In this document: in pieces, positions 29,020 through 48,146 of the stretch
How the letters are laid out: each line of letters starts with the position of its first letter
Position numbering within the stretch: the stretch's first letter is position 1
Made by a program: the position numbers and the translations under genes
The notes under the pieces: model-generated
Database searches by the model: none
Told to the model about the DNA's origin: nothing
What the model saw: only the letters and a program-made list of their open reading frames with translations
Assembly: GCA_947172645.1 (NCBI GenBank)
Contig: CAMWBY010000005.1
Span: 62,001-126,000, forward strand
DNA length: 64,000 nt
Direction: 5' to 3'
Source of the DNA: an uncultured Lachnospiraceae bacterium
GTDB taxonomy: Bacteria > Bacillota > Clostridia > Lachnospirales > Lachnospiraceae

Positions 29020-29277
29020 ATGAAAAAATTAATGTTACAGGCAGCTAAGTTCACATATTTCGCGGGATGTTTCTGGTATCTGTTTACGATACCGGCACAG
29101 GCATACATCGACCCGTCGGCAGTGACTTATATCATCCAGGCAGTTGCGGGCGTGCTCATTGCCTTGGGCGCGGCATTCACCATTTTCCGACATAAGATAT
29201 TTGCCTTTTTCAAGAAGAATAAGAAGGGCGGCGCTACGGAAGGCAGCGCGGTTGAATTTAAGGACGTGGACGATTAA
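29020..29277 (+). CDS. Small exported single-pass membrane protein
   Basis: 85 residues: signal-peptide-like start (KLMLQAAKFTYFAGCFWYLFTIPAQAYIDPS), a second hydrophobic segment (TYIIQAVAGVLIALGAAFTIF), then a basic loop (RHKIFAFFKKNKK) and acidic tail. Small proteins with an AYIDP-type segment followed by one helix are common next to surface-polymer genes, but no biochemical role is known to me. GGAGG lies 5 bases before the ATG at 29020; an upstream ATG at 29008 overlaps that site. It is 11 bases before the YidC-TagF fusion, so probably co-translated and possibly its partner. Confidence 0.72.
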   Translation: MKKLMLQAAKFTYFAGCFWYLFTIPAQAYIDPSAVTYIIQAVAGVLIALGAAFTIFRHKIFAFFKKNKKGGATEGSAVEFKDVDD

Positions 29278-29288
29278 GGGGCGGTCAG

Positions 29289-31169
29289 ATGGGTACAGTA
29301 ATCGATGCGGTAGTCGGCGGGCTTCTGTGGCTTATCAACCTGTGCTACGGGCTATGCCATAACTACTGGGCAGCAATCTTCATATTTACATTCCTGACGA
29401 AGGTGATTCTTCTGCCCCTCTCGGTGTGGGTGCAGAAGAACTCCATCAAGACGGTCAGGATGTCGCCGGAGATGAACCATATCAAGGCGGCATATTTTGG
29501 CAATCAGGAAGCAATCTCCGAGGAGCAGTATAAGCTGTTCAAGAGGGAGAAATACAGCCCCTTTGCAGACTTAATCCCCCTGTTCGTGCAGCTTGCGCTG
29601 CTGATGGGCGTGGTGGAAGCGGTGAAAAGGGGGACGGACCTGACGGACATCCCTGCCAGGACGGGAGGAATTACCCTGGTGATTCCCCTGCTTGCAGCGT
29701 TGTCCGCTTTTTTCATGTGTTACATGCAGAACCGGGCGAATGTGCTGCAATCGGAGCAGGGCCTGGCGAACAAGTACGGCACCATGGCATTCTCCGTGGG
29801 GCTCTCCCTATACCTGGGATTTTTTGTTTCCGTAGGGGTAGGGTTCTACTGGAGCTGCAGCAACATCCTTTCGGTGGTGCAGCTCATCCTGTTAAATATC
29901 TGGATTAACCCCAAGGACTATATTGACTATGAAGCCCTGGAGGAAAGCAAGGAGGCGCTCCGCAAGGCGAAGGAGTTCATGTCCTCGAAGCAGAAGGAGG
30001 ACAAGGGGAGCCCCTACAGGGCGAAGTGCAGGGCGGACTATAAGCGGTTCCTGAAGACGCCGGATAAAAAGGTGGTCTTCTATTCGGAGAAGAACGGCTT
30101 CTATAAATACTATAAGAACATAATCGAGGAGATTATCCGGCGGACCAACATCGTGGTGCACTACATCACAAGCGACCCGGAGGATGAAGTGTTCGGGATG
30201 GCGGGGAGCCAGTTCGTGCCCTACTACATCAATGAGAACAGGATGATTGTCCTGATGATGAAGATGGAGACGGACATTATGGTGATGACCACGCCTGACC
30301 TGGAGAACTTCCAGTTAAAGCGTTCCTACGTGAAGAAGGACATTGAGTATATCTATGTGCCCCATGACGTGAACAGCTCCAACTTGACGTTCCATAAGGA
30401 TGCGTTAGACCATTTTGACACGGTCTTCACCTCCGGCCCGAAGAACAAGGCGGAGATTGCGGAACGGGAAGAAAAATATGGGCTGCGGAAAAAGAACCTG
30501 GTGGAGTGGGGCTCGTCGGTGATTGACAACATGACCGCGTCTTACGCCGGGATGCTGCAGGAGGAAGGAAGCGCAGGGAAGCAGGACGGGAAAAAGACGG
30601 TACTGATAGCCCCTTCCTGGCAGGCGGACAACATACTGGATTCCTGTATAGAGGTGATGCTCAAGCAGCTTGCGGGCACGCCGTACCATGTCATTGTGCG
30701 CCCGCATCCGCAGTATGTGCGGCACTTTGGAGCGCGGATAGACGCCCTGGCTGAGAAGTACGGGGGAGATGGCGTGGAGTTCCAGAAGGACTTTTCCTCC
30801 AACAAGACAGTATACATGGCGGACCTCCTGGTGACGGACTGGTCGAGCATCGCGTTTGAGTATGCGTTCTCCACGTTAAAGCCCGTGCTGTTCATCAACA
30901 CGCCGATGAAGGTTGTAAACCCGGATTACAGGGAGCTTGAGACGGTCCCGATAGACATAGAGCTGAGGGAGCGGATAGGGATATCGGTGGAGCCTGGCAG
31001 GATAGAAGAGGGAATCGTGGAGGCGGTGGAGAGGCTCTTAGGGGATAAGCAGTTTTCACGGGAATCCATGGAGGCAATGAAAGAAGAATATATCTATAAC
31101 AACGGGATAAGCGGTAAGGTTGGCGCCAAGTATATCATCGACAGACTGGTAAACCGTTCGAAAAAATAG
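29289..31169 (+). CDS. YidC/Oxa1-like membrane domain fused to TagF-like CDP-glycerol glycerophosphotransferase
   Basis: 626 residues. Residues 5-207 resemble a YidC/Oxa1 insertase: NYWAAIFIFTFLTKVILLPLSVWVQKNS with K38 where insertases keep a groove Arg, a coiled hairpin region, YSPFADLIPLFVQLALLMGVVEAV and further helices to INPKDY. After a charged linker (208-258), residues 259-625 look like a TagB/TagF glycerophosphotransferase: VVFYSEKNGFYKY, YVPHDVNSSNLTFHK (His), IAPSWQADN, VIVRPHPQYV and LLVTDWSSIAFEYAF. TagF-type enzymes move glycerol-phosphate units from CDP-glycerol to wall polymers. Directly upstream of PhnW and PEP mutase genes, it is the likely transfer step of a phosphonate-containing surface polymer. 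The donor substrate is inferred. Confidence 0.82.
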   Translation: MGTVIDAVVGGLLWLINLCYGLCHNYWAAIFIFTFLTKVILLPLSVWVQKNSIKTVRMSPEMNHIKAAYFGNQEAISEEQYKLFKREKYSPFADLIPLFVQLALLMGVVEAVKRGTDLTDIPARTGGITLVIPLLAALSAFFMCYMQNRANVLQSEQGLANKYGTMAFSVGLSLYLGFFVSVGVGFYWSCSNILSVVQLILLNIWINPKDYIDYEALEESKEALRKAKEFMSSKQKEDKGSPYRAKCRADYKRFLKTPDKKVVFYSEKNGFYKYYKNIIEEIIRRTNIVVHYITSDPEDEVFGMAGSQFVPYYINENRMIVLMMKMETDIMVMTTPDLENFQLKRSYVKKDIEYIYVPHDVNSSNLTFHKDALDHFDTVFTSGPKNKAEIAEREEKYGLRKKNLVEWGSSVIDNMTASYAGMLQEEGSAGKQDGKKTVLIAPSWQADNILDSCIEVMLKQLAGTPYHVIVRPHPQYVRHFGARIDALAEKYGGDGVEFQKDFSSNKTVYMADLLVTDWSSIAFEYAFSTLKPVLFINTPMKVVNPDYRELETVPIDIELRERIGISVEPGRIEEGIVEAVERLLGDKQFSRESMEAMKEEYIYNNGISGKVGAKYIIDRLVNRSKK

Positions 31170-31195
31170 TGTAAGTATTACAGGAGGTTTCACAG

Positions 31196-32320
31196 ATGGT
31201 TAAGAGAAATGTATTGTTAAATCCGGGACCGGCTACGACGACCGATACAGTGAAGATGGCGCAGGTGGTGCCGGATATCTGCCCGCGGGAGAAGGAATTT
31301 GTGTCTGTCATGCGGGAGGTGGAGGAAGGGCTTCTGCGGATTGTCCATGCGAATCCTGAGGAGTATGCCGCAGTCTTATTCTGTGGTTCCGGGACAATCA
31401 ATATGGATATATGCCTCAATTCGCTGCTTCCGGCCGACAAGAAGATACTGATTATCAACAATGGGGCATACAGCAGCAGAGGAGCGGAAATCTGCGAATA
31501 TTACGGGCTTGCGTATATCAATCTGAGACTGCCCCTAGACAGGCAGCCAGACCTTGCGGTGATTGAGCAGACTTTGCAGGAAAACCCGGATGTGGCGTTG
31601 GTCTATACGACCCATCATGAGACAGGCACCGGACTTTTAAATCCCATAAAGGAGATTGGCGCCTTAGTGCACCGTTATCAGGGAGTGTTCGTGGTTGACA
31701 CCACATCCACTTATGCGATGCGGCCCATTCATATGGCACAAGACGAGATAGATTTCTGTATGGCTTCGGCACAGAAAGGCATTATGGCAATGACAGGACT
31801 TTCTTTTATCATCGGGAAAAAGTCTCTTATCGAAGCTTCCGCCGGATATCCGAAACGTTCCTATTATTGTAATTTATATATGCAGTATGATTATGCCAGG
31901 GCGCATGGGGAGATGCATTTTACGCCGCCAGTACAGGTAATCTATTCGGTACGGCAGGCGCTTGAGGAGTATTTTGCGGAAGGGGAAGCCGGAAAGTGGG
32001 CAAGGCACTGCCGTGTATACCAGGCAATCAGGGCGGGGCTTACGGAATTGGGATTCCGGATTTATATCTCACAGGAGCAGGAGTCCGGGCTTGTGGCGGC
32101 TGCGGTCTATCCGGATGACAGCCATTGGGATTTTGGAAAGATACATGATTACTGTTATGAGAGAGGATTTACTATTTACCCCGGTAAAGTGGAGAAACTC
32201 GGCATGTTCCGGCTGTGTGCGTTGGGAGCCATAGACCAAGAGGATATAGAAGCGTTTTTTGTTGTCTTCAAGGAAGCGTTGAAACATTATGGCGTCAGTG
32301 TGCCGGTGCAGTACAAATAG
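31196..32320 (+). CDS. phnW: 2-aminoethylphosphonate-pyruvate transaminase
   Basis: 374 residues, class V aminotransferase fold. LLNPGPATTTDTVKMAQVVPDICPREKEF is the family opening; CGSGTINMDICLNSLL, TTHHETGTGLLNP, DTTSTYAMRP and the PLP-lysine segment ASAQKGIMAMTGLSF follow. PhnW exchanges the amino group between 2-aminoethylphosphonate and phosphonoacetaldehyde. No phosphonatase (PhnX) lies nearby, while PEP mutase and phosphonopyruvate decarboxylase do, so it runs in the synthesis direction. AGGAGG lies 9 bases upstream. Confidence 0.9.
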   Translation: MVKRNVLLNPGPATTTDTVKMAQVVPDICPREKEFVSVMREVEEGLLRIVHANPEEYAAVLFCGSGTINMDICLNSLLPADKKILIINNGAYSSRGAEICEYYGLAYINLRLPLDRQPDLAVIEQTLQENPDVALVYTTHHETGTGLLNPIKEIGALVHRYQGVFVVDTTSTYAMRPIHMAQDEIDFCMASAQKGIMAMTGLSFIIGKKSLIEASAGYPKRSYYCNLYMQYDYARAHGEMHFTPPVQVIYSVRQALEEYFAEGEAGKWARHCRVYQAIRAGLTELGFRIYISQEQESGLVAAAVYPDDSHWDFGKIHDYCYERGFTIYPGKVEKLGMFRLCALGAIDQEDIEAFFVVFKEALKHYGVSVPVQYK

Positions 32321-32348
32321 CGGTTAGGATGAAAGACGGTGTGGATTG

Positions 32349-33644
32349 ATGAAGAAGGTTTATACGTGTTTTTGTACAGATGTGATACATGAGGGGCATA
32401 TGAATATCCTGCGGGAGGCTGCCAGGCATGGCGACGTCTACGTGGGGGTGCTGTCAGACGAAGCCATGGTAGGGTTTAACAGGTTTCCCACGATTTCCCT
32501 GGAACAGAGGATGGAGATTGTCAGGGAAACCGGGTTGGTGAAGGAAGTCATGGTCCAGCAAGAGGTTATGTATGACCGGGTTATCCCAGAGGTGAGGCCG
32601 GATTATGTGGTGCATGGGGACAACTGGGCCCAGGGGCCGGAGAGCGCCATCAGGGACAATGTCATAAAGAACCTGAAAGAATACGGCGGTGAGCTGTTGG
32701 AAGTCCCTTATACCTATAACGACAGGGTAAAGCGGATTGACGACCAGATGAAGGAGAAGCTTGCGATGCCGGAATTCAGGCGCAGGCGGCTCCGTCAGTT
32801 AATTGCGATGCGCCCCATTGTCAAGACACTGGAAGTGCATTCCGGGCTAACCGGGCTGATTGCGGAGAAGACGGTGGTGGAGAGCAACGGGAAACTGGAC
32901 CAGTTTGACGCCATGTGGATATCCTCGCTGTGCGACTCCACGGCCAAGGGAAAGCCCGATATCGAACTGGTGGACATGTCCTCCAGGATACGGACAATCG
33001 ACGATGTGATGGACGTGACGACGAAGCCGATTATCCTGGACGGGGATACAGGCGGCCTGGTGGAACACTTCGTATATAATGTGCGGACATTGGAGCGGAT
33101 GGGCGTGTCCGCGGTGATTATAGAGGATAAGACCGGGCTTAAGAAAAATTCCCTGTTCGGCACGGAGGTGGAGCAGACACAGGACAGCATAGAGAATTTC
33201 TGTGCGAAAATCAGCGCAGGGAAGAAAGCGCTGCGCACGGATGATTTTATGATTATCGCCAGGATAGAGAGCCTGATTTTAGAGCGGGGAATGGAGGATG
33301 CGTTAAAGCGTGCGGATGCCTATGTGCAGGCAGGGGCGGACGGCATTATGATTCATTCCAGGCAAAAATCACCGGACGAGATACTTAAGTTCTGCCACCT
33401 GTTCCGGGAGAAGGATAAGAAGACGCCCATTGTGGTGGTACCCACTTCTTTTAACAGCATTACGGAGGAGGAGCTTGCGGCGGCAGGGGTGAACATCGTT
33501 ATCTATGCGAACCAGCTGACCAGGAGCGCTTTTCCGGCGATGCAGGGAACGGCGGTGGAGATATTGAAGAACCACAGGGCGTTGGAGGCGGATTCCAGGC
33601 TGATGCCCTTTAAGGATATTATCCGGCTGATAGACGAGATATAA
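32349..33644 (+). CDS. pepM: Phosphoenolpyruvate mutase with N-terminal cytidylyltransferase domain
   Basis: 431 residues. Residues 1 to about 130 are a nucleotidyltransferase domain with the HxGH motif (H14-E-G-H17), resembling glycerol-3-phosphate and ethanolamine-phosphate cytidylyltransferases. Residues about 150-425 are PEP mutase: WISSLCDSTAKGKPD, DGDTGG (231-236), and the diagnostic EDKTGLKKNS (259-268), an exact EDKX5NS signature that separates PEP mutase from isocitrate-lyase-type relatives. It turns PEP into phosphonopyruvate, the carbon-phosphorus bond-forming step. The N-terminal domain may activate the phosphonate or a glycerol phosphate with CTP. The ATG at 32349 is used; a TTG lies just before. 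Confidence 0.92.
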   Translation: MKKVYTCFCTDVIHEGHMNILREAARHGDVYVGVLSDEAMVGFNRFPTISLEQRMEIVRETGLVKEVMVQQEVMYDRVIPEVRPDYVVHGDNWAQGPESAIRDNVIKNLKEYGGELLEVPYTYNDRVKRIDDQMKEKLAMPEFRRRRLRQLIAMRPIVKTLEVHSGLTGLIAEKTVVESNGKLDQFDAMWISSLCDSTAKGKPDIELVDMSSRIRTIDDVMDVTTKPIILDGDTGGLVEHFVYNVRTLERMGVSAVIIEDKTGLKKNSLFGTEVEQTQDSIENFCAKISAGKKALRTDDFMIIARIESLILERGMEDALKRADAYVQAGADGIMIHSRQKSPDEILKFCHLFREKDKKTPIVVVPTSFNSITEEELAAAGVNIVIYANQLTRSAFPAMQGTAVEILKNHRALEADSRLMPFKDIIRLIDEI

Positions 33645-33690
33645 GGAAAAGAACTGTTGAAAGAAAATCCATTGGCCCACGGAGGAAAAT

Positions 33691-34383
33691 ATGCGAGAGA
33701 TAGCAATTTTAATGGCGGCAGGTTTGGGAAGCCGTATGTATCCACTGACGCAGTCGTGTCCTAAGCCGTTGATAGAAGTTCACGGCAAGGCGATGATTGA
33801 GACCGTGATTGACGGGCTTTTGCGGCGTCCAGTGGAAGAAATATATATTGTGACAGGTTATCTTGGGGAGCAATTTGAATATTTGCGTGAGAAGTATCCG
33901 CAGGTTCGGCTTGTGCATAATCCGGAGTACTTGACAAAAAATAATATTTCTTCTGTGTATGCGGCAAGAGAAGCGCTTGGGACGGCGGCTTGTTTTATCT
34001 GTGAGTCTGACTTGTATGTGGCAGATGCTTCTATTTTCTGCAAAGAGCTTACGCATTCCTGTTATTATGGAAGAATGCAACGGGGATATTCGACCGATTG
34101 GGTGTTTGAGCTGAAAGATGGGTATATTTCCCGGGTTGGCAAGGGAGGAAACGACACATATAACATGGTTGGCGTATCCTATTTTACAAAGGAGGACGCC
34201 TGCATTTTACGGGAAGAGATTGAGAAAGCCTGCGAAAAGGAAGAAAACGGCGGTTTATTCTGGGACGAGGTAGTTGACCGAAATTTGGACAAGCTTAAAC
34301 TGACGGTGGAACCGGTGTCGGAAGGACAGCTTGTGGAGATTGATACAGTGGAAGAATTGGAGAAAATCAATGAAAGCATCTAA
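33691..34383 (+). CDS. LicC/PntC-like CTP-dependent nucleotidyltransferase
   Basis: 230 residues, sugar-nucleotidyltransferase fold: IAILMAAGLGSRMYPLTQSCPKPLIEV (GxGxRxxPLT...KPL), ICESDLYVAD for metal binding, and a DEVVDRNL / VEIDTVEELEKI C-terminus as in LicC. LicC makes CDP-choline; in phosphonate loci the related PntC makes CMP-2-aminoethylphosphonate. Placed between PEP mutase and phosphonopyruvate decarboxylase, the PntC role is most likely. Its last 14 bases overlap the next gene. Confidence 0.82.
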   Translation: MREIAILMAAGLGSRMYPLTQSCPKPLIEVHGKAMIETVIDGLLRRPVEEIYIVTGYLGEQFEYLREKYPQVRLVHNPEYLTKNNISSVYAAREALGTAACFICESDLYVADASIFCKELTHSCYYGRMQRGYSTDWVFELKDGYISRVGKGGNDTYNMVGVSYFTKEDACILREEIEKACEKEENGGLFWDEVVDRNLDKLKLTVEPVSEGQLVEIDTVEELEKINESI

Positions 34384-35491
34384 ATTGTTATCACAGTTGG
34401 AACATATGGGAATTGATACGGTTGCAGGAGTGCCTGATTCCACGCTGAAGCAGTTTTGCGACGGTGTGCAGTGTTACCAGGGCGGGCTGACCCATTATGT
34501 GGCAGTTAACGAGGGCGCGGCGGTCGGCCTGGCAATCGGGAGCTATCTTGCTTCCGGCAAACCGGCGTGCGTGTATATGCAGAATTCAGGAATTGGGAAT
34601 ATGGTCAATCCCCTTGCGTCGCTGGCCAACAGTGACGTATATGGGATACCTATGCTGTTTATCATCGGGTGGCGCGGGGAACCGGGCGTCAAGGACGAGC
34701 CTCAGCATGTTTTCCAGGGAAAAGTGACCTGCGAGCTGTTGGAGACACTGGCGGTTCCTTACAGCGTGATTGACCGGAATACGACGGACGAAGAAATGGA
34801 TGAAATTCTGCATGAGGCGGATAAGGCGTTAAAGCATGGGGATCAGTTTGCGGTTGTCGTGAAAAAAGGGACTTTTGAAAAAGAAGAACCTTTTACTTGG
34901 GAAAACGGTAATCGTATGGGGAGAGAAGAGGCGCTGGAACATATCCTGCGCGGGCTGCCCAGAGATGTGGCGGTGGTGTCCACTACGGGGAAGATATCGC
35001 GGGAACTGTACGAGCAGAGCCGGGAAATCTATGGAAACCATGACAATCTGTTTATGACGGTGGGCGGCATGGGACACGCTTCCATGATTGCGCTTGGGAT
35101 TGCCGGGAAACGGGCGGACAGAAAGGTGGTCTGCATAGACGGGGACGGCGCAGCGCTGATGCATATGGGCGTGTTGCCTTTTATCGCTTCCCAGGCACCG
35201 GAGAATTTCTATCATATCGTAATCAATAACCAGGCGCACGAATCCGTAGGGGCTATGCCCACGGGATGCAGGCAGACGGAGTTTTCACAGATTGCCAGAG
35301 CGGCGGGATACCGCCAGGCACGGAAGCTTGTATCGATGGAGGATGTGGACAGGATTGGGGAGTGGGTTTCATCCCAGGCAGGGCCGATTATGTGGGAGAT
35401 TCCGGTATCCCTTGCTTCACGGGCGGATTTGGGCAGGCCGAAGGAGAGCGCGCGTGAGAATAAAGAAGGGTTTATGAAGTTTCTCGGTTAG
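34370..35491 (+). CDS. ppd: Phosphonopyruvate decarboxylase
   Basis: 373 residues, thiamine-diphosphate enzyme. The N-terminal half has GIDTVAGVPDSTLKQFCDG, HYVAVNEGAAVGLAIGSYLA (catalytic Glu) and GWRGEPGVKDEPQHVFQG; the C-terminal half has the ThDP motif GDGAALMHMGVLPF...NN. It converts phosphonopyruvate to phosphonoacetaldehyde, pulling the unfavourable PEP mutase step forward. The ATG at 34370 lies inside the end of the nucleotidyltransferase gene, so the two are translationally coupled. Last gene of the phosphonate cluster. Confidence 0.92.
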   Translation: MKASKLLSQLEHMGIDTVAGVPDSTLKQFCDGVQCYQGGLTHYVAVNEGAAVGLAIGSYLASGKPACVYMQNSGIGNMVNPLASLANSDVYGIPMLFIIGWRGEPGVKDEPQHVFQGKVTCELLETLAVPYSVIDRNTTDEEMDEILHEADKALKHGDQFAVVVKKGTFEKEEPFTWENGNRMGREEALEHILRGLPRDVAVVSTTGKISRELYEQSREIYGNHDNLFMTVGGMGHASMIALGIAGKRADRKVVCIDGDGAALMHMGVLPFIASQAPENFYHIVINNQAHESVGAMPTGCRQTEFSQIARAAGYRQARKLVSMEDVDRIGEWVSSQAGPIMWEIPVSLASRADLGRPKESARENKEGFMKFLG

Positions 35492-35692
35492 GCAGTTTTC
35501 TGGATAAAAAAATACTCTTTTTGACATACTCTTTGACATATTTCATAAAAAATCTTTCTTTTTTATATTTTTTATGTTAAACTTTATACAACTGTGATGT
35601 ATTATACAATCATTCCCGGGAGTTTTCCAACTATTCCAGACACTTAGACAGGCAGAAGAAGTTTCGGGAATATATGGGTAATGGAGGTACAT

Positions 35693-37645
35693 ATGGCAAA
35701 TCAGAGAGTGGAAGCGTTGGTTTATACAAATGATAATTGTGTAGGCTGTAACAAATGCATTTCGGTCTGTCCGGTGCTCACGGCAAACCAGGCAGTGTCT
35801 GAGGACGGCAAGAATATTATTGTGGTGGATGGCAAGCAGTGTATCAGTTGTGGCGCGTGCTTCGACGCATGCGCGCACAATGCGAGAAGCTATGTGGATG
35901 ACACGGAACGCTTCTTTGAGGACTTGAAAAGAGGAGACAAGATATCCCTTCTGCTTGCGCCTGCATTTTTGGCGAACTATCCGAGAGAATACGGAAGCGT
36001 GTTGGGCGGGCTGAAGAAGCTCGGCGTCAACCGGATTATCAGTGTCAGTTTCGGCGCGGATATTACCACATGGGGATATATTAAGTATATTACAGAACAT
36101 GATTTTAAGGGCGGCGTATCGCAGCCATGCCCTGCGGTTGTAGGTTATATCGAGAAGTACATTCCTGAATTAATTCCAAGTCTGGTTCCAGTGCATTCCC
36201 CTATGATGTGTGCCGCTATTTATGCCAAGAAATACATGAAAGTGCCGGATAAGCTTGCTTTTATCGGCCCGTGCATTGCGAAGAAGAATGAGATAGAAGA
36301 CCCGAACTGCGGCGGCTATGTATCGTACAACGTGACGTTTGACCATTTAATGGAATATGTGAGACAGCACGGTATTTCCGGCCCGTCTGTAACGGATGAG
36401 ATTGAGTATGGGCTGGGCTCTATCTACCCTATGCCGGGAGGGCTCAAGGAGAACGTATATTGGTTCTGCGGTGAAGAAGTTTTTATCAGGCAGATTGAAG
36501 GCGAGCAGCACACCTATGAATTTCTGGAGGATTATAAGGAGAGGGTGCTTGGTAAGAAGGAACTTCCGTTTATGGTGGATGCCTTAAACTGTGCTAAGGG
36601 CTGTATTTACGGCACAGGCGTGGAGAAGGAGAGGACGCAGACCGATGATATCCTCTATGAATTGCAGAGAATTAAGGCAGCCAGCAAGAAAAATGACCGC
36701 AGACATGCCTTCAGCAAGAAATTGACGCCGAAACAGAGGTTAGATAAATTCAATAAGCAGTTTAAAATGCTTAATATCAATGATTTTATCAGGCATTATA
36801 CCGACCGGTCGGAGGGATTGGAAATCCGACGGCCGAACGCGTCGGAGCTGAACGGTATTTTTACGGATATGGATAAAAACACCGATATGCAGAGGACGAT
36901 GGATTGTTCTGCGTGCGGTTATGTATCTTGTAAAAATATGGCTGTGGCGATTTATAATGGTTGTAACCATAAAGAGAACTGCATCCAGTACGTGAAAGGT
37001 GAAGTGGAGAAAGAGAATGTGCGCGCACGGCAGTTAGCACAAGACATGGAGGCTAAAAACGCCGAAATCCAAGAAAAAAATGAGATGATTGCCGCATTGA
37101 TTGCCGAAGTGCATGAAGATTTTGTCAGCCTGGATACATCTATCGTCGAGATGTCCCAGGGGAATAACAGCAATGCCCAGGAGAGTACTGGTATATCGAC
37201 GTCCATGGCTGATGTAGTCAGCTTCTGCGACGCTTTGAAGATGGCATTAACGAATATTCAGGAGCTTTTAGTGAAATTAGAATTAAATAACGGCGAGATT
37301 ACTAATGTGGCCGAGGAGACGAACCTGTTGGCGCTCAATGCGAGCATCGAGGCGGCCAGGGCGGGGGAATCCGGCAGAGGATTTGCGATTATTGCGGAAA
37401 ATATTAAAAAGCTGGCGGAATTGTCGAAAGATACAGCCAGCGACAGCGATTCCAACAAAGAACAGATTCAGGAGGCCATTACGATGCTGCTTGGCGATGC
37501 CGAGAATTTGATTGACATCATCGACAGTGTGAATGTGCGCGTCACGAATCTGGCGGCTGCAACGGAGGAGATTGCGGCTTCAGCGGATATGGTGAGTACG
37601 ATTTCTTCCGATTTGAAAACGAAATTAGGAAGGCTTACCTCATAA
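35693..37645 (+). CDS. [FeFe]-hydrogenase-like H-cluster protein fused to a chemoreceptor signalling domain
   Basis: 650 residues. Two ferredoxin motifs open it ([25 protein letters not shown]). The hydrogenase-like domain retains the L1, L2 and L3 cysteines in altered form: [28 protein letters not shown] and [12 protein letters not shown]. Then a further Fe-S domain ([21 protein letters not shown]) and, after a coiled coil, a methyl-accepting-chemotaxis-type segment ([19 protein letters not shown]). No transmembrane or HAMP segment is seen. Sensory hydrogenases of this kind are thought to signal hydrogen or redox state rather than do bulk catalysis. GGAGG lies 5 bases before the ATG at 35693. 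Confidence 0.88.
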
Positions 37646-40941: not shown

Positions 40942-41014
40942 GCGCGAGTGGCTCAGTTGGTGGAGCACGACCTTGCCAAGGTCGGGGTCGCGGGTTCGAG
41001 TCCCGTCTCGCGCT
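40942..41014 (+). tRNA. tRNA-Gly (anticodon GCC)
   Basis: A full cloverleaf: acceptor GCGCGAG (40942-40948) / CTCGCGC (41007-41013), D-stem GCTC/GAGC, anticodon arm CGACC-TTGCCAA-GGTCG giving GCC, T-arm GCGGG-TTCGAGT-CCCGT, discriminator T. CCA is not encoded. Its 3' end is the attachment site of the integrative element downstream. Confidence 0.96.
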
Positions 41015-41019
41015 CTTTT
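40992..41019. repeat. attL: 28-bp direct repeat at the tRNA-Gly 3' end
   Basis: The 28 bases starting GGGTTCGAGTCCCGTCTCGC are repeated exactly at 45733-45760. The repeat covers the T-arm and acceptor end of the tRNA, so integration leaves the tRNA intact. Confidence 0.88.
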
Positions 41020-41106
41020 ATTAGCCGGGAAACCTGTAAAATACAGCGTTTCCCGTTTTTCATGCCCTGAAAGTTTTGATTACACTTGATTACATTTTTC
41101 AGGGAT

Positions 41107-42409
41107 TCATATTGTTTTGTGGGTCAATGCCTTTTCCAGGAGGCTTTCTGTCTCATCTTGCGGCATACGGTTGAAACAGTAATTCTTGTAAGTTGTACGT
41201 TCGTCCTCATGCCCAACCTGTTTCCTGATTTCGTTTATATTTACACCAGCGTCAATAAGACTGCTGATATAAGTCTTGCGCGCTTTATGCGAAGACTTTT
41301 CTCCAATGCCAATATAGCGGCAATATTTTCTGATGCGGGTATCAACACTCCGGCCATGGACTCGCCCGTTTGCATTTAAGAAGAGATAGCCGTCATCATA
41401 ATAACCGTGGTCTTGGTTATTTTGCTTCACCAATTCTAAAATTGACCTTGCGGTATTGCTTAGGTATACAAGCCTGTCCCCGGCGTTGGTCTTGGCATGT
41501 TCCACTATTTGGTAATGCTGTGTGTTCCATGAGCCGTCGGGGTTCTGCTGAGTCTGCCTTGTTTCCATGCGTTGTATATGTAGGTATTTTCCTGTAATGT
41601 CGCTTTCTTTCAGCGCAACGATTTCCCCTAGCCTTAAGCCTGTCTGATATAAAAAAGGTATGGCTAAACATGCAGATTCACCGGTTTCATGGAAATCCCT
41701 GTAAGCTTCTTTCTCAATCAATGGTTGTTCGGTAGTCAGAAAAACTTGCGTTTCATCACTTGGCTTTTTATTGTTGCAAAACAGTTTGCGGTCAATAGTA
41801 ATTTTGGAAAAAGGATTATCAGCAATGATATTTTTCTGTACGGCATATTCCAAAGACTGGCGTATAATAATAGTCATATTGTAATATTGCTTTTTTGTCA
41901 GTTGGCATGTCCTGATTTTTTTAAGCGCCCATTCCTCCAGTCTGTCATAGGTTAGTTGTTGCAGGGGAATATCAATCAAAGGGTCATCTATATAATACTT
42001 TTCCAAATCGTTATGAATGCGGCGGATATACATAGATGAGGTGGTCTTTAATTTCTTATAGTTAAGCCACGTTTGATAGAATGCGCGTAAAGTAATTTTA
42101 CGCCCGGATGACTCATTGTCCATATCCTTATAATATGCAATGATTGCATTATCCAGTTTTTCGCGGCTTCCCTTTGCGATAAGCCTCCGTTTGTTTTTTT
42201 TGTCTGTCATCGGGAAGATAGGTTCTCCATCTGCCGTCTGTACCCTGCCAAATATTGAAAGTGTGGTTTTCAAGATATTTTTTATTGTTCATATCATCTA
42301 TTTCACTTTTGGCATCCTCTAGGGATATATTACATTTACTTAGAAGAAAATGCAATGGAGAGTCATCTGGGTTTATTGTTTGTTCATTTCTTTCCATAAG
42401 CTGCACCAT
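41107..42409 (-). pseudogene. int: Tyrosine recombinase integrase, split by a one-base frameshift
   Basis: The catalytic part (41107-42201) has YQTGLRLGEIVAL (Arg), SSHKARKTYISSL (H-x2-R), QVGHEDERTTYKNYCF (His and nucleophile Tyr), as in Tn916-type integrases. The family's N-terminal DNA-binding segment (TFNIWQGTDGRWRTYLPDD) is found in another frame that starts at 42409. The frames meet at a run of eight A residues on the coding strand (42194-42201); seven A residues would restore one protein of about 433 residues reading DDRQKNKRRLIAKG. It may be a true mutation, a slippery site, or a sequencing error. Transcribed towards attL. Confidence 0.85.
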
Positions 42410-42956
42410 AGAAAAGTTGTCCCACAGCGTTGATATTTTTATATATGTGTGTTTTTGATAAAAAGGGTAACGACTTTTTTTCCTTTCTCACGTTATCCAT
42501 AAATTTTTGATTTCTGGAATTTTGAAATCTTCAATATATCTATTCCTGTAAATGAAGTCCCTTTTCAAACCCATAACCACTTTCTAACAAGATATGTTAT
42601 ATGTTCCTTTTTTCTAACTTATTTTCTTTTTTGTGCGCATTTCCTCCCTTTCTGGTCATGGCGTATCTGATATGTTTTTAATGATGTTTTTGTTTATTTT
42701 GGGGTGTAAATTGGGGATTTGCGGTTAAATTTGGGGATTAAAGAACTGTTTTTTATTGAGATATCAGGATGGACTGTAATATTTTTGTTTGTTTTGTCAA
42801 GATTGACGCATATATTTATGGAAAAGTCTATTTTTTGCGTATTTTATGACTTATTTATTAAAAAAATGGGGAAGTGCCAGACGGGGCAGGGGACAGCCCT
42901 AAACACTCTTAGAACTATCCCTTGCTTACCTTTTTATCCATCCCCATTTTTCTGCT
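42410..42956. other. A/T-rich gap with no gene recognised
   Basis: 547 bases between integrase and XRE regulator. Very A/T-rich; short open frames have no ribosome sites or recognisable families. It may once have held an excisionase or replication gene. Confidence 0.5.
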
Positions 42957-43169
42957 CTATTGGTTTTCTCGGATTTCCAATAAATCCTCAATTTCACAAT
43001 TAAAATATTCACATAGCTTTAGTATCAGGTTTGCATCTATTCGTTGAAACTCATCACGGCAATATCTGTTAAAATTCCCCCTCGGTAAATCAAGGTCTTT
43101 ACAGATTCGGTTTTTGGAAACTGACCGTTCAGTCAATAACTCGTTGATTCTCATGTGCAAATATTTCAT
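42957..43169 (-). CDS. Small XRE/Cro-type DNA-binding regulator
   Basis: 70 residues, a single helix-turn-helix: INELLTERSVSKNRICKDLDLPRGNFNRYCRDEFQRIDANLILKLCEYFNCEIEDLLE. This is the standard Cro/C1 form used by integrative elements and phages. An AGGA ribosome site is just upstream of the ATG at 43169. A 30-bp palindrome at 43266-43295 in the divergent spacer is a candidate operator. Confidence 0.85.
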   Translation of the reverse strand: MKYLHMRINELLTERSVSKNRICKDLDLPRGNFNRYCRDEFQRIDANLILKLCEYFNCEIEDLLEIRENQ

Positions 43170-43265
43170 TTTATTCCTGTACCTTCCTTTTTTATTTTAT
43201 TATAAAAAAGGGATTATTATATTGTAATTTACAAGATATTAAGGCATAATAAACCAAGTTCATAT

Positions 43266-43295
43266 TTAATACCTTGCTATATAGTAAGGTATTAA
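43266..43295. promoter_or_regulatory. 30-bp palindrome, candidate XRE operator
   Basis: TTAATACCTT (43266-43275) and AAGGTATTAA (43286-43295) flank a near-symmetrical CTATATAG core, with one mismatched pair over 30 bases. TTGTAATTTACAA (43222-43234), closer to the XRE gene, is a second palindrome. Confidence 0.6.
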
Positions 43296-43429
43296 TAATG
43301 GAAATTGTACATGAATACTGATTAGGAGTAAAAATTTTTATTTATTCATGCAACTTTCCTAAGATTTAAACATACTTTTTAAACAGCTGATAAAAAACTA
43401 TAAAACACAAGATGAAAGGGTGATAAAAA

Positions 43430-44211
43430 ATGGCTAAGAAAAAGCTATTAACAATGGGGCTTATTGCGCTCATGGGAACAGGCTGTTTCATAGGGTGTTC
43501 TGCTGTACAGAATGACGCGCAAACGGTTGAAACAACGGCAACGCCAAAAGAAATCGAGGTCACAGCAGAAAAAATACGGATGCGGAACCGCTTGTATCAG
43601 AAGAATCTACTTATAAGGAAGAACAGCCGTTGACAGCAGAGACGGCAGAAAGGGAAGAAGCGGAAAGCGGTACAAGCCATACGGAACAGGAAACGGATAT
43701 TTCACAGGACGATGTAGCCAAGGCAGGGTAAGAGGAAAAACAGGAAGAATCCGGGCAGGAGGCAACGGAAGAACCCGAAGCGGATAACATAGATGAGATG
43801 GATACATACTTATATGCCACGGCTGATGTCAATATGCGTGAAGGATACACGACAGACTCGGGAGTGATAAAGGTGGTTCCCTATGGGACGAAACTGCATG
43901 TCACGGGAGTCATTGAGAACTGGTACCGTATTGACGGGGAAGGTATGGGGTATGTATTCGGTAAATATTTGTCAGCAGAGGAGCCAGTAAATCAGGTGGC
44001 AAGCCAGTCCACAGCCCAATCCCAGGCAGAAACGTCTGCCCAAACCGGAGAGAAAAAAACATACGAACAGACGTATAACGAGTTAATTGGGTGGGGATTT
44101 TCTCCTGAAACGGCAGCCGAATTAGCAGAAATAAGCACTAGCGGTCCCGAACCCCCAAATTCCCAATTAGCAATGGAGGGCGGCAATATTAATATTTTTT
44201 TAAATAAATAA
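43430..44211 (+). pseudogene. SH3-domain lipoprotein, broken by a frameshift and a stop
   Basis: A lipoprotein start (KKLLTMGLIALMGTGCFIGCSA) runs to about 43568 in one frame. At GCAGAAAAAATACGG (43566-43580) the frame must shift to continue as an acidic Ser/Glu/Thr linker (NTDAEPLVSEEST...), which then meets an in-frame TAA at 43729-43731. Past it the same frame encodes a bacterial SH3 domain (DVNMREGYTTDSGVIKVVPYGTKLHV...WYRIDGEGMGYVFGKYL) that would bind wall peptides. A later ATG at 43798 could express the SH3 part alone. After the TAA at 44209 the frame stays open to 44376 (KSLECGKAMLQGDYEITIDSDD), possibly a lost C-terminal domain. Confidence 0.75.
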
Positions 44212-44394
44212 ACTGCAATAAATTTTACTTCCGGCATCAAAATCACAGGTAAGTGTAACATGTATGTAAAATCTCTGGAATGTGGTAAAGCTATGTTGCA
44301 GGGGGACTATGAGATTACAATTGATTCCGATGATGATGTTTCAGTAGAATATATGAATTTTGATTTACAACTTTAATATCAATGCAACCGGAAA

Positions 44395-44433
44395 GAAAAG
44401 CAACCAAAACTATTATGAGTGTGGTTGCTTTTC
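44395..44433 (+). terminator. Terminator after the SH3 lipoprotein remnant
   Basis: GAAAAGCAACCA (44395-44406) pairs with TGGTTGCTTTTC (44422-44433), a 12-bp stem with 15-base loop and T-run. Confidence 0.75.
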
Positions 44434-45142
44434 GACATATTTCGTTTATATATCCATACAATGAAACAAATATATCGATAAGCGGAAAATCTTAAAACCG
44501 CATCTTAAAATTAATCCAAACCATATTCTTTCCCTAAAATAGAAAATATCCCTTAAAAACAACCTTTTTGGGAAAACATACAAGGAAATCTGAAATTTTT
44601 AATGATAAATAATTATTCGGTCTGAATAAAAATCCTTCATTTGAGATTTAGTCTTAATAGATTTTCAGCATTTAAAACTAAAATAGGAAGGAAACCATTG
44701 GTTTTCAGCATAAAATATTAACAAGCTTTGATTCCGGAGGTGTTTTATTACATTGTAAGATGTTGTTTTTTAAAACTGTAAACCGTCAATTCAAAATAAA
44801 AGGGCTTACAGTTAACCATTCTTTTTGATTGAACATCTACATTTTATTCCCATGGAAAAAATAGGCATCTACTACACCATGTTAGAAAAACAGCCATATA
44901 CACAAAAGAAAAAACAGGGAACCAATTTACAACACGCCATAGGGGATAGGAACATATCCAAAAAGCATGATAAGTTAGAAAAATAAGACTTCTGGCATAA
45001 CTTGTTAGTTTTTGTAGAGGAGTTTGAAAAGGGATTTTATTCACAGAAGGATATATCATTTTAAATTTTTATAAGTATAAAAATAGTTGTCTAGCGAAAA
45101 TAGTATTGCATAAAAATGAGGATTGGTTTAAAATAATAAAAA
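44434..45142. other. A/T-rich gap with no gene recognised
   Basis: About 700 A/T-rich bases inside the integrative element. No frame here has a ribosome site plus recognisable content. Confidence 0.5.
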
Positions 45143-45192
45143 GGGTGTTACCGTTAGTAACGGTTCGCCTCAGTTAATAGTTACACAAAATC

Positions 45193-45233
45193 AAAAAAAG
45201 CAACCTAACTTTGGTCGGAGCGGTTGCTTTTTT
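45193..45233. terminator. Terminator overlapping the small hydrophobic-peptide gene end
   Basis: AAAAAAAGCAACC (45193-45205) and GGTTGCTTTTTT (45222-45233) form a hairpin with U-run in either direction. The peptide's last codons lie within the stem-loop. Confidence 0.8.
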
Positions 45234-45342
45234 GATGCTTTTTATTTACCATGGCGGTCTGTATGATACTGATAACAGTGACAATCATGCTAAGAACTGT
45301 CACCGCAATACCAACAATACCGACTATTGTTTCCAACACCAT
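45205..45342 (-). CDS. Small hydrophobic peptide, type I toxin-like
   Basis: 45 residues: MVLETIVGIVGIAVTVLSMI followed by VTVISIIQTAMV, then a charged tail NKKHQKSNRSDQS. One helix plus a basic, polar C-terminus is the usual design of type I toxin peptides (Fst/TxpA/holin-like). GAAAGG lies about 9 bases before the ATG. The gene runs straight into a strong terminator and is enclosed by inverted repeats. A long plus-strand frame over the same bases (45211-45501) is probably its shadow. An antisense RNA has not been identified. Confidence 0.6.
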   Translation of the reverse strand: MVLETIVGIVGIAVTVLSMIVTVISIIQTAMVNKKHQKSNRSDQS

Positions 45343-45732
45343 ATCTTGTACCTTTCGCTATATTTTCCATATGTATCACCTCCAAATACTGGAAGCTCTC
45401 AAAATGTACTCATTTTGGCAAAAGGCGAACCGCTTACCGTTCAGGTAACACCCATAATAAAGGTATCACAGAAAATGCCGGATTGCAATGGTTTAAAGTA
45501 AAATATCAATGGAAATAACGGATAGACAGGGAATTGTAAATCACGGGATATATATTTGGGATGAAAAGGGAAATTTTATGCTAGATATATAGACTTGGGG
45601 ATGAAGTTTAGGTATATAGGAGAATTTTGGCACGTCAAACATAGGAATATGGGGCAATGATTACACTTTTGATTACATTTTATAAAGAGGATGCGCAAAG
45701 TGCCTTTCTGCCTGTGTTTTAGATTTTTATGT

Positions 45733-45760
45733 GGGTTCGAGTCCCGTCTCGCGCTCTTTT
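45733..45760. repeat. attR: second copy of the 28-bp tRNA-end repeat
   Basis: Exact copy of 40992-41019. It is followed by a GCGGAAAC...GTTTCCGC terminator-like hairpin (45768-45798), as the tRNA copy is followed by GGGAAAC...GTTTCCC (41027-41054). Confidence 0.85.
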
Positions 45761-45879
45761 TAATGAAGCGGAAACGTTGATAAATACAGCGTTTCCGCTA
45801 TTTTTGTGTGCCTACAAATCGGTATACAGTTGTAGACAGTACTTTAATACCATTACAATGCCTTTGCTATGAGACCATC

Positions 45880-46107
45880 TTACGCCGCTTTGGAATAATC
45901 AATGACAGCAATTTCCTGCATAAGCTGTTTCGCCATATTTACAAGAGCTTCCACCTGTTCAGCAACTTCGTCCGAATAATATTTCTCACCGCATTGCTCA
46001 CACTCTTCACAAGGTACATTTTTGATAATGATAATGCAGTTTTTATAATTTACGACATGAGTTGTCAATGATGGAATCGTGGTCTTACATTTACAATACA
46101 TACACAT
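45880..46107 (-). CDS. YgiT/MqsA-type zinc-finger antitoxin-like protein
   Basis: 75 residues: two CxxC-type pairs (MYCKC... and CEECEQCGEKYYSDEVAEQVEAL) typical of the YgiT/MqsA N-terminal zinc domain, ending IDYSKAA. No full helix-turn-helix domain follows, so it is the short form. It starts 2 bases after the stop of the DUF4258 gene, giving the toxin-antitoxin-like order seen on the other strand at 46631-47181. Confidence 0.75.
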   Translation of the reverse strand: MCMYCKCKTTIPSLTTHVVNYKNCIIIIKNVPCEECEQCGEKYYSDEVAEQVEALVNMAKQLMQEIAVIDYSKAA

Positions 46108-46109
46108 AA

Positions 46110-46424
46110 TTACTGCCCCTTTCTTGTCTTTAAATCCTTTTCAAACTTATCGGTACTTGGAAAGTAAGCTGTTATAAAAAACAGACTGTTGCTATCTGAG
46201 CCAACAACAATATGCAATATTTTATTTTCTTTCGTATGCCCGAAAACAAGACAACTGGGATAAGGGAAATCATCTGGATACTCCTCTATGATTTCGCCCG
46301 TTTGCAGGCTGGACTTCGCATCCGCAATACTGATATCCCTTTCCTGCATACGCTCCAGACAATGTTTTGACCATTTTATATTGGATGAAACATTTAATAG
46401 CCTTTAAAGCTGTTCTATATCCAT
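46110..46424 (-). pseudogene. DUF4258 protein with an early stop codon
   Basis: Reading from the ATG at 46424 gives MDIEQL, then TAA (46404-46406), then RLLNVSSNIKWSKHCLERMQERDISIADAKSSLQTGEII... in the same frame, matching the intact copy at 46631 (EDLRKLCTDDTIIMTAHIIKRCKERNIDSDSI). Codon 7 is probably a mutated Lys or Gln codon. An internal ATG at 46349 could give a shortened 79-residue form without the first helix. DUF4258 proteins are RelE-like toxin candidates. Confidence 0.7.
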
Positions 46425-46510
46425 ATCCGTAATTCCTTTGCTTGTGTTTATAAATATTATACACTATTTCGGCAAGAAATAAAATATGTTTACCGACCTC
46501 TTACAGAAGA

Positions 46511-46529
46511 TTGTAGACAGTGTCTACAA
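46511..46529. promoter_or_regulatory. 19-bp perfect palindrome between the divergent modules
   Basis: TTGTAGACAGTGTCTACAA lies between the two DUF4258/YgiT modules, upstream of both, near TATAAT boxes at 46601-46606 (plus) and complement of 46456-46461 (minus). It fits autoregulation by an antitoxin; inference. Confidence 0.5.
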
Positions 46530-46630
46530 TGCCTTACTTATGAGGTCATGCTTATGAGGTCATAGGTCTTTTTTACTTCCCTATTCTGAATGAAGTATGA
46601 TATAATATTCCATAGAAAGCAGGTGAAAAA

Positions 46631-46948
46631 GTGGCTTTACATATTGAGGATTTAAGAAAACTATGTACAGACGATACTATTATAATGACTGCACATATAA
46701 TAAAACGTTGCAAAGAAAGAAATATTGATTCAGACAGTATTATAAAAGTCATTATGCATGGTGAAATTATAAAGCAATACGAAGATGATAAGCCGTTCCC
46801 TAGCTGTTTATTATTGGGAATGTCAATAGATGGCAAATATTTGCATGTAGTCGTTGCAAGTGATAATATCAATTTACATATAATAACAGCATATTATCCA
46901 AGTACTGACGAATGGGAACCAGACTTTAAAACCAGAAGGGGGCGTTGA
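46631..46948 (+). CDS. DUF4258 protein, toxin candidate
   Basis: 105 residues starting at GTG with AGGTG upstream. Segments IIMTAHIIKRCKERNIDSDSIIKVIMHGEIIKQYEDDKPFPSCLLLG and KYLHVVVASDNINLHIITAYYPSTDEWEPDF follow the DUF4258 pattern: a conserved His near the first helix, and a C-terminal beta segment. The fold is thought RelE/MqsR-like, so an mRNA-cleaving toxin is possible. Followed directly by a YgiT-type gene. Activity has not been shown for this protein. Confidence 0.75.
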   Translation: MALHIEDLRKLCTDDTIIMTAHIIKRCKERNIDSDSIIKVIMHGEIIKQYEDDKPFPSCLLLGMSIDGKYLHVVVASDNINLHIITAYYPSTDEWEPDFKTRRGR

Positions 46949-46950
46949 AT

Positions 46951-47181
46951 ATGAATTGTTTTACTTGTGGCAGCAACCATATGATTGAGTCAACAACAAT
47001 CTATGTCGAGAAATTAGGAAATGGTATCCTGATTGTAAAAAATGTTCCATGCAGGAAATGTTCCCAGTGCGGCGAGGAATTTTTTTCAATGGCAATCATG
47101 AAAGAGATTGAGAAATTAAGTAAACAGGCAGAAAAGATTATCAGTGAAGTTATGATTATTGATTACAACAAGGCGGCATAA
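46951..47181 (+). CDS. YgiT/MqsA-type zinc-finger antitoxin-like protein
   Basis: 76 residues: CFTCGSNHM and NVPCRKCSQCGEEFFSMAIMKEIEKLSKQAEKI, ending IDYNKAA. It is a paralogue of the protein at 45880 (shared IVKNVPC, CSQCGE / CEQCGE and IDY-KAA). The ATG at 46951 has AAGGGGG about 9 bases upstream and begins 2 bases after the DUF4258 stop. Predicted to bind zinc and neutralise or partner the upstream protein. Confidence 0.75.
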   Translation: MNCFTCGSNHMIESTTIYVEKLGNGILIVKNVPCRKCSQCGEEFFSMAIMKEIEKLSKQAEKIISEVMIIDYNKAA

Positions 47182-47224
47182 AACGTGCTTCTCCTTGATT
47201 TTATTGGATTTTTCAGACACTTTT

Positions 47225-47300
47225 GGGTTCGAGTCCCGTCTTGCACTTTGGTTAAATTTGCGGAAACGTTGATAAATACGGCGTTTCCGTTTTTCTTTGT
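47225..47300. repeat. Third, degenerate tRNA-Gly att copy with hairpin
   Basis: GGGTTCGAGTCCCGTC (47225-47240) matches the att repeat exactly for 16 bases, then diverges (TTGCACT for TCGCGCT). It is followed by GCGGAAACGTTGATAAATAC and GGCGTTTCCG, near-identical to the hairpin after the second copy. This marks the far end of an older insertion in the same tRNA. Confidence 0.7.
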
Positions 47301-47429
47301 GTCTGCAAATTTGAAGACAGTCTATCAATCCTTAACTATGAAGGCGCGTATCCAAAGGCGGCGTTTGAGTAGTCTTGCCCCGGAGATTTCCCTGTGCTAT
47401 GATATTTTTGGATAAAGAGAGGTTTACTT

Positions 47430-48146
47430 ATGTTACAGATTGCGATATGTGATGACGAGCGGTTTTATCAGGAAAAGATACAGAGCCTTCTTGCAAAATT
47501 TTTTGACGGACGGGGAATGGAGTATACAGTCGCATCGTTTTTTTCGGGGGAAGAATTTCTGGGACAGTGTGAGAACAATGTGCGTTTCGACATTGTGTTT
47601 CTGGATATCAGTATGGCGGAGGTGGATGGCATACAGACGGCTATGCGTATCCGCTCTTTTTACAGTGACACCTATATTGTATTCGTGACAGCTTTCATTG
47701 ATTATGCATTGGAAGGGTATAAGGTGAATGCTGTCCGGTATCTGATGAAGGATACGCTTGATTTGGCGATGGACGAGTGCATGACGGCGATTTTACACAA
47801 AATGCGGCTTTCCTGGGTGACATTTACGTTCCTGGAGGGTAAGAAGAAACTGTATACCGATAATATTGTTTATGTGGAGAGCAGGGGACATAAGACGTTT
47901 TTTTATTATATGGAATCGGAGAGGGTTGTTTACCAGATTTACGATAAACTGGACGATGTGGAGAAAGTATTGGACGGTCATGGATTCCTCCGAATCCACA
48001 AGAGTTATCTGGTAAATATGAAGCATATCAGTAAAATCAGTAATTATATGGCATATTTGGATACAGGGGAAGAGCTTTCCGTGCCCCGGCTGCGTTTTCA
48101 GACTGTGAAGGAGGCGTTTTTGGCTTATCAAGGGGAAGTGGGATGA
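47430..48146 (+). CDS. LytTR-family response regulator (AgrA-like)
   Basis: 238 residues. Receiver domain 1 to about 120 (ICDDERFYQEKIQSLL; phosphoacceptor in DIVFLDISMAEVDG), then a LytTR DNA-binding domain (about 135-235: IVYVESRGHKTFFYY, FLRIHKSYLVNMKHI). Such regulators bind pairs of direct repeats upstream of targets. AGAGG lies about 8 bases before the ATG. Directly followed by its histidine kinase. Confidence 0.92.
   Translation: MLQIAICDDERFYQEKIQSLLAKFFDGRGMEYTVASFFSGEEFLGQCENNVRFDIVFLDISMAEVDGIQTAMRIRSFYSDTYIVFVTAFIDYALEGYKVNAVRYLMKDTLDLAMDECMTAILHKMRLSWVTFTFLEGKKKLYTDNIVYVESRGHKTFFYYMESERVVYQIYDKLDDVEKVLDGHGFLRIHKSYLVNMKHISKISNYMAYLDTGEELSVPRLRFQTVKEAFLAYQGEVG

Follow-up and report, generated by a model that had tools for sequence, protein, structure and literature searches.

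In this study, we analysed a 64,000-nucleotide stretch of DNA from an uncultured Lachnospiraceae bacterium (assembly GCA_947172645.1, contig CAMWBY010000005.1, positions 62,001 to 126,000), referred to below as the window. We identified in it a plus-strand operon of six tightly packed genes (29020-35491) in which enzymes for making cytidine monophosphate (CMP)-2-aminoethylphosphonate (AEP) are encoded directly after a protein, here called YT, that joins a YidC/Oxa1-like membrane domain to a TagF-like transferase domain. In many related loci a membrane protein of the AlkP superfamily lies near YT or is fused to it, and the genes for the activated head group differ between loci. Every single domain and the CMP-AEP route are already known, and we regard the YT system as a variant of the known Pnt and Lic pathways of surface tailoring, with a fair chance that it is a new kind of machine. 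The rearranged parts in relatives suggest an undescribed way of placing small phosphorus groups on the cell surface.

The YT fusion and its operon

YT (29289-31169; 626 residues) consists of a YidC/Oxa1-like domain (residues ~5-210) followed by a TagF-like transferase domain with a GT-B fold (residues ~260-620), as judged from Pfam, alignment, AlphaFold and Foldseek. Both Pfam matches, PF02096 (E 6e-28, residues 26-203) and PF04464 (E 1.6e-14, residues 372-537), were above cut-off. An alignment of the window protein with 52 of 73 complete relatives (53 sequences) yielded an AlphaFold model with a mean predicted local distance difference test (pLDDT) score of 86.3 and a predicted template modelling score of 0.65. 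In Foldseek searches its TagF-like part matched 8qoy, an enzyme of capsule synthesis from Actinobacillus that ranked first (E 1.5e-10), and TagF (3l7j, E 2.1e-10, template modelling score (TM) 0.56 by target), and its membrane part matched Bacillus halodurans YidC (3wo7, E 2.4e-7, TM 0.70 by target length, root mean square deviation 3.1). A first-pass annotation, made from the sequence alone, had read YT as a transferase tied to the membrane by an insertase-like domain and had made this depend on an Oxa1-like fold for residues 5-207; that fold was recovered, joined to the TagF-like fold, which supports a membrane-tied transferase. As a whole YT scored below the NCBIfam YidC cut-off (TIGR03592, 80.1 versus 84.3 bits), and it stayed far below the cut-offs of the equivalog models.

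Conserved residues were found in both halves of the protein. Residue 38 is Lys in 51 and Arg in two of the 53 sequences, and it aligns with an Arg of the Escherichia coli and B. halodurans YidC proteins that we take to be the groove Arg; Q147, W188 and N192 are kept in all 53 sequences, and the four columns presumably line a YidC-type groove. YT shares the core membrane fold of the YidC/Oxa1/Alb3 insertases (3wo7, 6al2) but differs from them in this Lys and in the TagF domain that follows the membrane core. In the TagF-like half, H359 and H473 are invariant in the 53 sequences. The same genome encodes, apart from YT, a canonical TagF-like protein (G000:C6:8439-9539), whose WH and R-x-HP motifs place their histidines in the same alignment columns. 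We assume that they are the TagF catalytic histidines; the PDB titles of TagF structures name H444 and H548 mutants. The GT-B fold and the two aligned histidines are thus shared with TagF and other PF04464 CDP-glycerol (CDP, cytidine diphosphate) transferases (PDB 3l7i-3l7m), whereas the Oxa1-type fusion and a TDWS in place of TDYS set YT apart. In a tree of 47 rows, the membrane domains of YidC-TagF and of YidC-AlkP proteins each formed a group of their own on long branches, and a common origin of both fused types apart from ordinary YidC was not rejected (approximately unbiased test, p 0.40). Lys38 was also considered as a diagnostic residue for YT but was not taken as proof; in this column nine of 13 ordinary YidCs have Tyr and 16/16 YidC-AlkP fusions have Asn or Gln, perhaps partly through misalignment.

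The four genes downstream of YT encode PhnW, a 2-aminoethylphosphonate aminotransferase (31196-32320; TIGR03301, 431.4 bits, cut-off 360.8), a fusion of a cytidylyltransferase-like domain (PF01467) to phosphoenolpyruvate (PEP) mutase, or PepM (32346-33644, with an alternative ATG possible at 32349; TIGR02320, 413.8 bits, cut-off 319.55), a PntC/LicC-like cytidylyltransferase (33691-34383) and Ppd, a phosphonopyruvate decarboxylase (34370-35491; TIGR03297, 455.6 bits, cut-off 312.5). The open reading frame (ORF) of Ppd was listed from 34331, and ATG 34370 is its likelier start. A small exported membrane protein, considered below, precedes YT; the gaps between the first five genes are 11, 26, 25 and 46 bp, the PntC/LicC-like and Ppd ORFs overlap, and genes for homoserine dehydrogenase and aspartate kinase precede the operon. 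All the parts named by the first-pass annotation, including the small protein and the YidC-TagF fusion beside the phosphonate genes, are present where it had placed them, and the full route to CMP-AEP that it had proposed is borne out by scores above the TIGR cut-offs, by the mutase motif EDKX5NS, found in the window protein and in 44/44 cluster members, and by the best PDB match of the PntC/LicC-like protein, Streptococcus pneumoniae LicC (E 2.7e-34, full-length alignment). It had overlooked the PF01467 domain with its HxGH motif at the N-terminus of the mutase; such fusions are a known variant, and in the set of Rice et al. (2019, PMC6697681) 23.6% of PepM proteins carry PF01467. Glu105 of the PntC-like protein corresponds to Glu104 of Tde-PntC, and a Glu stands at this position in 41/41 aligned PntCs from AEP contexts (five of the 46 AEP rows lie outside the alignment). 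The same Glu occurs in 14 LicC fusions with a CobD-like domain (LicC605) and is missing from five aligned LicC-like proteins of the choline-kinase type. Because the LicC605 fusions carry it too, Glu105 is no proof of selectivity for AEP. As predicted from sequence, a complete enzyme set for CMP-AEP, comprising PepM, Ppd, PhnW and PntC, is supported.

The operon is not confined to this genome. By our reading of the match table, a close match to YT is present in 16 of 299 genomes from the family; in three of them (G051, G216 and G251) it is split. PepM occurs above cut-off in 31 of the 299 genomes, in 10/16 of those with YT versus 21/283 of the others (Fisher p 1.7e-7). A scan of GTDB species genomes gave at least 593 candidate stretches, 556 of which encode a YT relative by tblastn; the best 80 of these were kept and match most of YT, while the remaining 476 were not shown to be fusions. 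The best 80 come mainly from Lachnospiraceae, with Oscillospiraceae, Ruminococcaceae, other Clostridia and one genome labelled Saccharibacteria. In a survey of gene order, which the first-pass annotation had suggested, the order small protein-YT-PhnW-PepM-PntC-Ppd was seen again in many of the 100 loci compared, and this recurrence, together with the enrichment of PepM in YT genomes, indicates an arrangement beyond chance. In one locus with an otherwise similar operon, a HipA-like gene separates YT from PhnW (L054:12168-13361).

Donor modules, LicD and TagD

The genes beside YT were labelled in 96 rows, comprising the 100 loci minus L051, L052, L090 and L106, for which no fusion ORF was recovered, and L100, left out by hand, plus the window. 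Gene-cluster names rest throughout on a Pfam scan of one member per cluster. An AEP module, defined as PepM, or both PhnW and Ppd, within 8 kb of YT, was present in 46 rows. LicC-type fusions lay within the same distance in 17/96 rows (LicC605 in 14 and a LicC/choline-kinase cluster in three), a PntC-like gene alone in seven and PhnW or Ppd alone in two; the remaining 24 had no label. Over the 63 labelled rows on a YT tree (a quick tree without bootstrap), the label switches between AEP and LicC at least seven times, so that YT tends to be retained where the donor is exchanged. LicC605 was considered as a second maker of CMP-AEP and rejected, since the three genomes of the family sample that carry it (G213, G086 and G196) have no PepM and its second domain is CobD-like in the one member scanned; CDP-ethanolamine as its product is a guess. 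Near another YT gene (L044:11774-13909) is a 711-residue protein with a nucleoside triphosphate transferase domain, an RmlD-like reductase domain and a phosphoribosyltransferase-like stretch below cut-off, which may produce a further activated group.

LicD is almost entirely lacking from YT loci. No LicD was found in the window strain's own genome, and a home-made hidden Markov model (HMM) built from 20 LicD sequences of the family found LicD at only two of the 100 YT loci (L090 and L132); the same model recovered six expected LicDs in control loci. Nevertheless, 31 of 50 YT genomes carry LicD somewhere. Within 10 kb of PepM, LicD was found in 0/8 YT clusters versus 10/23 other PepM genomes (Fisher p 0.03; counts made by hand, with some contigs short). 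In one of those ten genomes, G261, a free TagF-like gene lies close by as well. The second locus with LicD, L132, is titled Candidatus Saccharibacteria (a genome of ~0.7 Mb) and holds YT, PntC-like and LicD genes, through transfer or misbinning.

The first-pass annotation had proposed that the operon builds a teichoic-acid-like polymer carrying AEP, which we take to mean a glycerol-phosphate polymer polymerised by the TagF-like domain. The PF04464 match and the TagF fold of YT agree with this, as does the capsule synthesis enzyme that heads its Foldseek matches. We nevertheless regard such a polymer as very unlikely, given that the window strain's genome, which is 98% complete, has only two weak matches to TagD (best 43.6 versus a cut-off of 165.4 bits), that AEP or LicC-type donor genes stand beside YT, that LicD is near-absent there and that the genome encodes a separate canonical TagF-like protein. 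Taken together, the lack of a TagD above cut-off, the varying donor modules and the scarcity of LicD at YT loci make it more likely that YT uses its TagF-like domain as a head-group transferase than as a glycerol-phosphate polymerase. Some genomes of the family (G294, G297 and G177) hold four to seven PF04464 matches, several of them consecutive on one contig; these are probably ordinary teichoic or capsule clusters separate from YT.

The AlkP-superfamily partner and a candidate route to the surface

An AlkP-superfamily membrane protein of ~580 residues (cluster c1) was found in the fetched flanks of 66/96 YT loci (here L100 is included and the window excluded), in 40 of them within 500 bp of YT. 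Where 9 kb or more of flank was available on either side of YT (40 loci), it was present in 31; these are raw counts, not set against a background rate. In its model (pLDDT 89.8) an AlkP-type fold follows five helices at the N-terminus, and Foldseek matched it best to PbgA/YejM and also to sulfatases, phosphonate monoester hydrolases and LtaS/LtaP. T250, D459 and H460 are invariant in an alignment of 31 of the 58 AlkP partners. With PbgA/YejM, LtaS and LtaP the partner thus shares five N-terminal helices, the fold and these three residues, but it is distant from them (13-16% identity) and is adjacent or fused to YT. The PF00884 score was 20.9 bits (cut-off 25) in the one stand-alone c1 protein scanned and above cut-off in the two YidC-AlkP fusions scanned. 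The window strain's genome (3.87 Mb) has two c1 members on other contigs (HMM E 3.8e-152 and 9.7e-147).

The linkage between the domains extends to gene fusion. YT and AlkP form one ORF in three loci, with AlkP first in the sister rows L122, where the ORF runs off the contig end, and L127, and with YT first in L100. A sister family consists of TagF-like proteins that are free, and 14/16 of its loci have a YidC-AlkP fusion close to the TagF gene (12/13 fetched loci together with L196 and L197, L195 lacking it). The fusions of L196 and L197 were confirmed by Pfam and adjoin PepM genes, and eight of the 13 fetched loci hold LicC- or choline-kinase-related genes by blastp against the earlier clusters. 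Since the same three domains occur in three linkages, there is good evidence, at the level of sequence, that the YidC, TagF and AlkP domains act together. The catalytic domain of the AlkP partner may face outward; hydropathy is clear only for L100, in which 5 + 5 segments are consistent with TagF inside and AlkP outside.

The genes and domains, their folds and conserved motifs, the association of the genes and the rearrangement of the domains can all be read from sequence, and from these observations we infer a scheme covering donor use by the TagF-like domain, a lipid acceptor, the crossing, the sidedness of the domains and the final glycan. The operon enzymes would supply CMP-AEP, from which the cytosolic TagF-like domain of YT, in LicD's place, would transfer AEP to a membrane-held acceptor, most likely a lipid. 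The YidC/Oxa1-like domain would hold the product and aid its crossing of the membrane, much as Oxa1-family proteins scramble lipids; scrambling in vitro by E. coli YidC and other Oxa1-family insertases is described in a preprint (PMC10491306). An outward-facing AlkP-superfamily transferase would then pass AEP to a surface glycan, much as LtaS and EptA hand over groups from phosphatidylglycerol and phosphatidylethanolamine; in the window strain this partner would have to come from elsewhere in the genome. Relatives may supply the machine with donors of the LicC type, of which CDP-choline is a likely one and CDP-ethanolamine, or a donor with a similar amine, another. We favour this mechanism as a whole only tentatively, as one nearly as apt to be right as wrong; should the transferase be correctly assigned, the lipid-carrier step may still be mistaken.

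Several observations weigh against this scheme. In 24/96 rows, some of them on short contigs, no donor gene lies within 8 kb. Among 25 genomes without a YT-adjacent PepM (26 of the 33 rows with neither an AEP nor a LicC605 or choline-kinase label were checked), 14 have PepM elsewhere and 11 have none. For 30/96 YT loci the fetched flanks showed no c1 protein, and no AlkP gene of its family lies within the window, hence none beside the operon. Its Foldseek matches are distant (among the matches listed, TM at most 0.56 by target and 11-16% identity). Hydropathy gives four segments in the YidC part of the L122 and L127 fusions and 12 segments in all in three YidC-AlkP fusions, so that AlkP may face either side there. 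The small protein encoded ahead of YT plays no part in the scheme, and a lipid-linked glycan could itself be the acceptor of YT.

In one alternative explanation all decoration takes place on the cytosolic face, in the manner of LicD: YT moves AEP to an undecaprenyl-linked glycan repeat, the YidC-like domain is an anchor and AlkP is a separate tailoring enzyme. Glycosyltransferase-like neighbours are indeed common (cluster c7, 31 ORFs in 26/100 loci), and both the near-absence of LicD beside YT and the retained TagF fold and motifs fit such a role. A mere anchor, however, would not be expected to conserve Q147, W188, N192 and the charged residue of the first transmembrane segment (Lys38/Arg), and the explanation does not account for AlkP-YT fusions in both orders or for the YidC-AlkP fusion of the sister family, so that we consider it unlikely. 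Alternatively, YT may make an AEP lipid that is itself the sole end product, a membrane phosphonolipid with no hand-over to a glycan. In line with this, carbohydrate or lipid nucleophiles are presumed to capture CMP-AEP (PMC6697681), and no AlkP gene stands beside the window operon. The association and fusion with AlkP in many relatives make this alternative improbable.

Compared with known systems, transfer by YT, crossing and hand-over by AlkP would stand closest to the Pnt and Lic pathways. The route to CMP-AEP is that of the Pnt pathway (PepM-Ppd-AEPT-PntC), down to the Glu104 of Tde-PntC, whereas the place taken in Pnt clusters by LicD-like phosphotransferases or glycosyltransferases (PMC6697681) is taken in the window by the YidC-TagF protein. 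The Lic phosphocholine pathway (LicA/LicC/LicD) resembles those YT loci that adjoin a fusion of LicC-like and choline-kinase parts, but YT loci nearly lack LicD and have TagF-like, YidC-like and AlkP domains instead. Among the open-access literature covered, mostly titles and the starts of abstracts, there was no description of a YidC-TagF fusion, of a LicD stand-in of this kind or of the triad with AlkP. It is doubtful, though worth considering, that gut Clostridia possess an undescribed machine in which a cytosolic transferase of CMP- or CDP-linked head groups works with a scramblase domain of the Oxa1 type and with an AlkP transferase outside the cell, and that aminoethylphosphonate, phosphocholine and phosphoethanolamine would thereby cross the membrane bound to a lipid and reach the surface. 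If true, a YidC-type domain would here serve in nature as a transporter dedicated to lipids, a role for which we know of no other case. Present in many gut Clostridia, the locus offers a concrete candidate with which two ideas become testable: that phosphonate or phosphocholine is placed on gut bacterial surfaces without LicD, and that lipid scrambling by Oxa1-type domains has a biological role.

The small protein and the remainder of the window

The product of the first gene of the operon (29020-29277), which often accompanies YT, is a small exported membrane protein that carries a YIDPSAVTYIIQ motif. Its ORF extends from 29008, and the start at 29020 that the first-pass annotation had chosen is the better one, having GGAGG upstream. 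Neither Pfam (at E 0.01) nor NCBIfam (at 0.001) gave a match to the protein, which contains one hydrophobic segment beyond a start that resembles a signal peptide by eye. The companionship could mean that YT is a dedicated insertase, whose YidC-like domain inserts this protein as a carrier or regulator of the transferase. A small ORF of the YIDP type lies within 1.5 kb of YT in 77/96 loci, the window strain's genome keeps a separate, ordinary YidC, and a signal peptidase I-like gene (cluster c8) is nearby in 21/100 loci (e.g., L128:14467-14958). By the same pattern search, no such ORF was found within 1.5 kb in 19/96 YT loci or in the 13 loci of the TagF/YidC-AlkP family, and a dedicated insertase appears to us a poor prospect. 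In several loci the signal peptidase I-like gene adjoins the CobD-like LicC fusion.

Two other features of the window were noted. Directly downstream of the operon, a 654-residue ORF (35681-37645) has iron-sulfur (FeS), [FeFe]-hydrogenase-like and chemotaxis signalling (MCP) domains, and a redox or hydrogen sensor is a possible function. Further downstream, the region 40942-48000 has a tRNA-Gly gene and, after it, an ORF on the minus strand (41107-42273) that in translation looks phage-integrase-like by eye, and G+C content falls to 35-38% at 42-48 kb of the window; possibly, this region is an integrated element.

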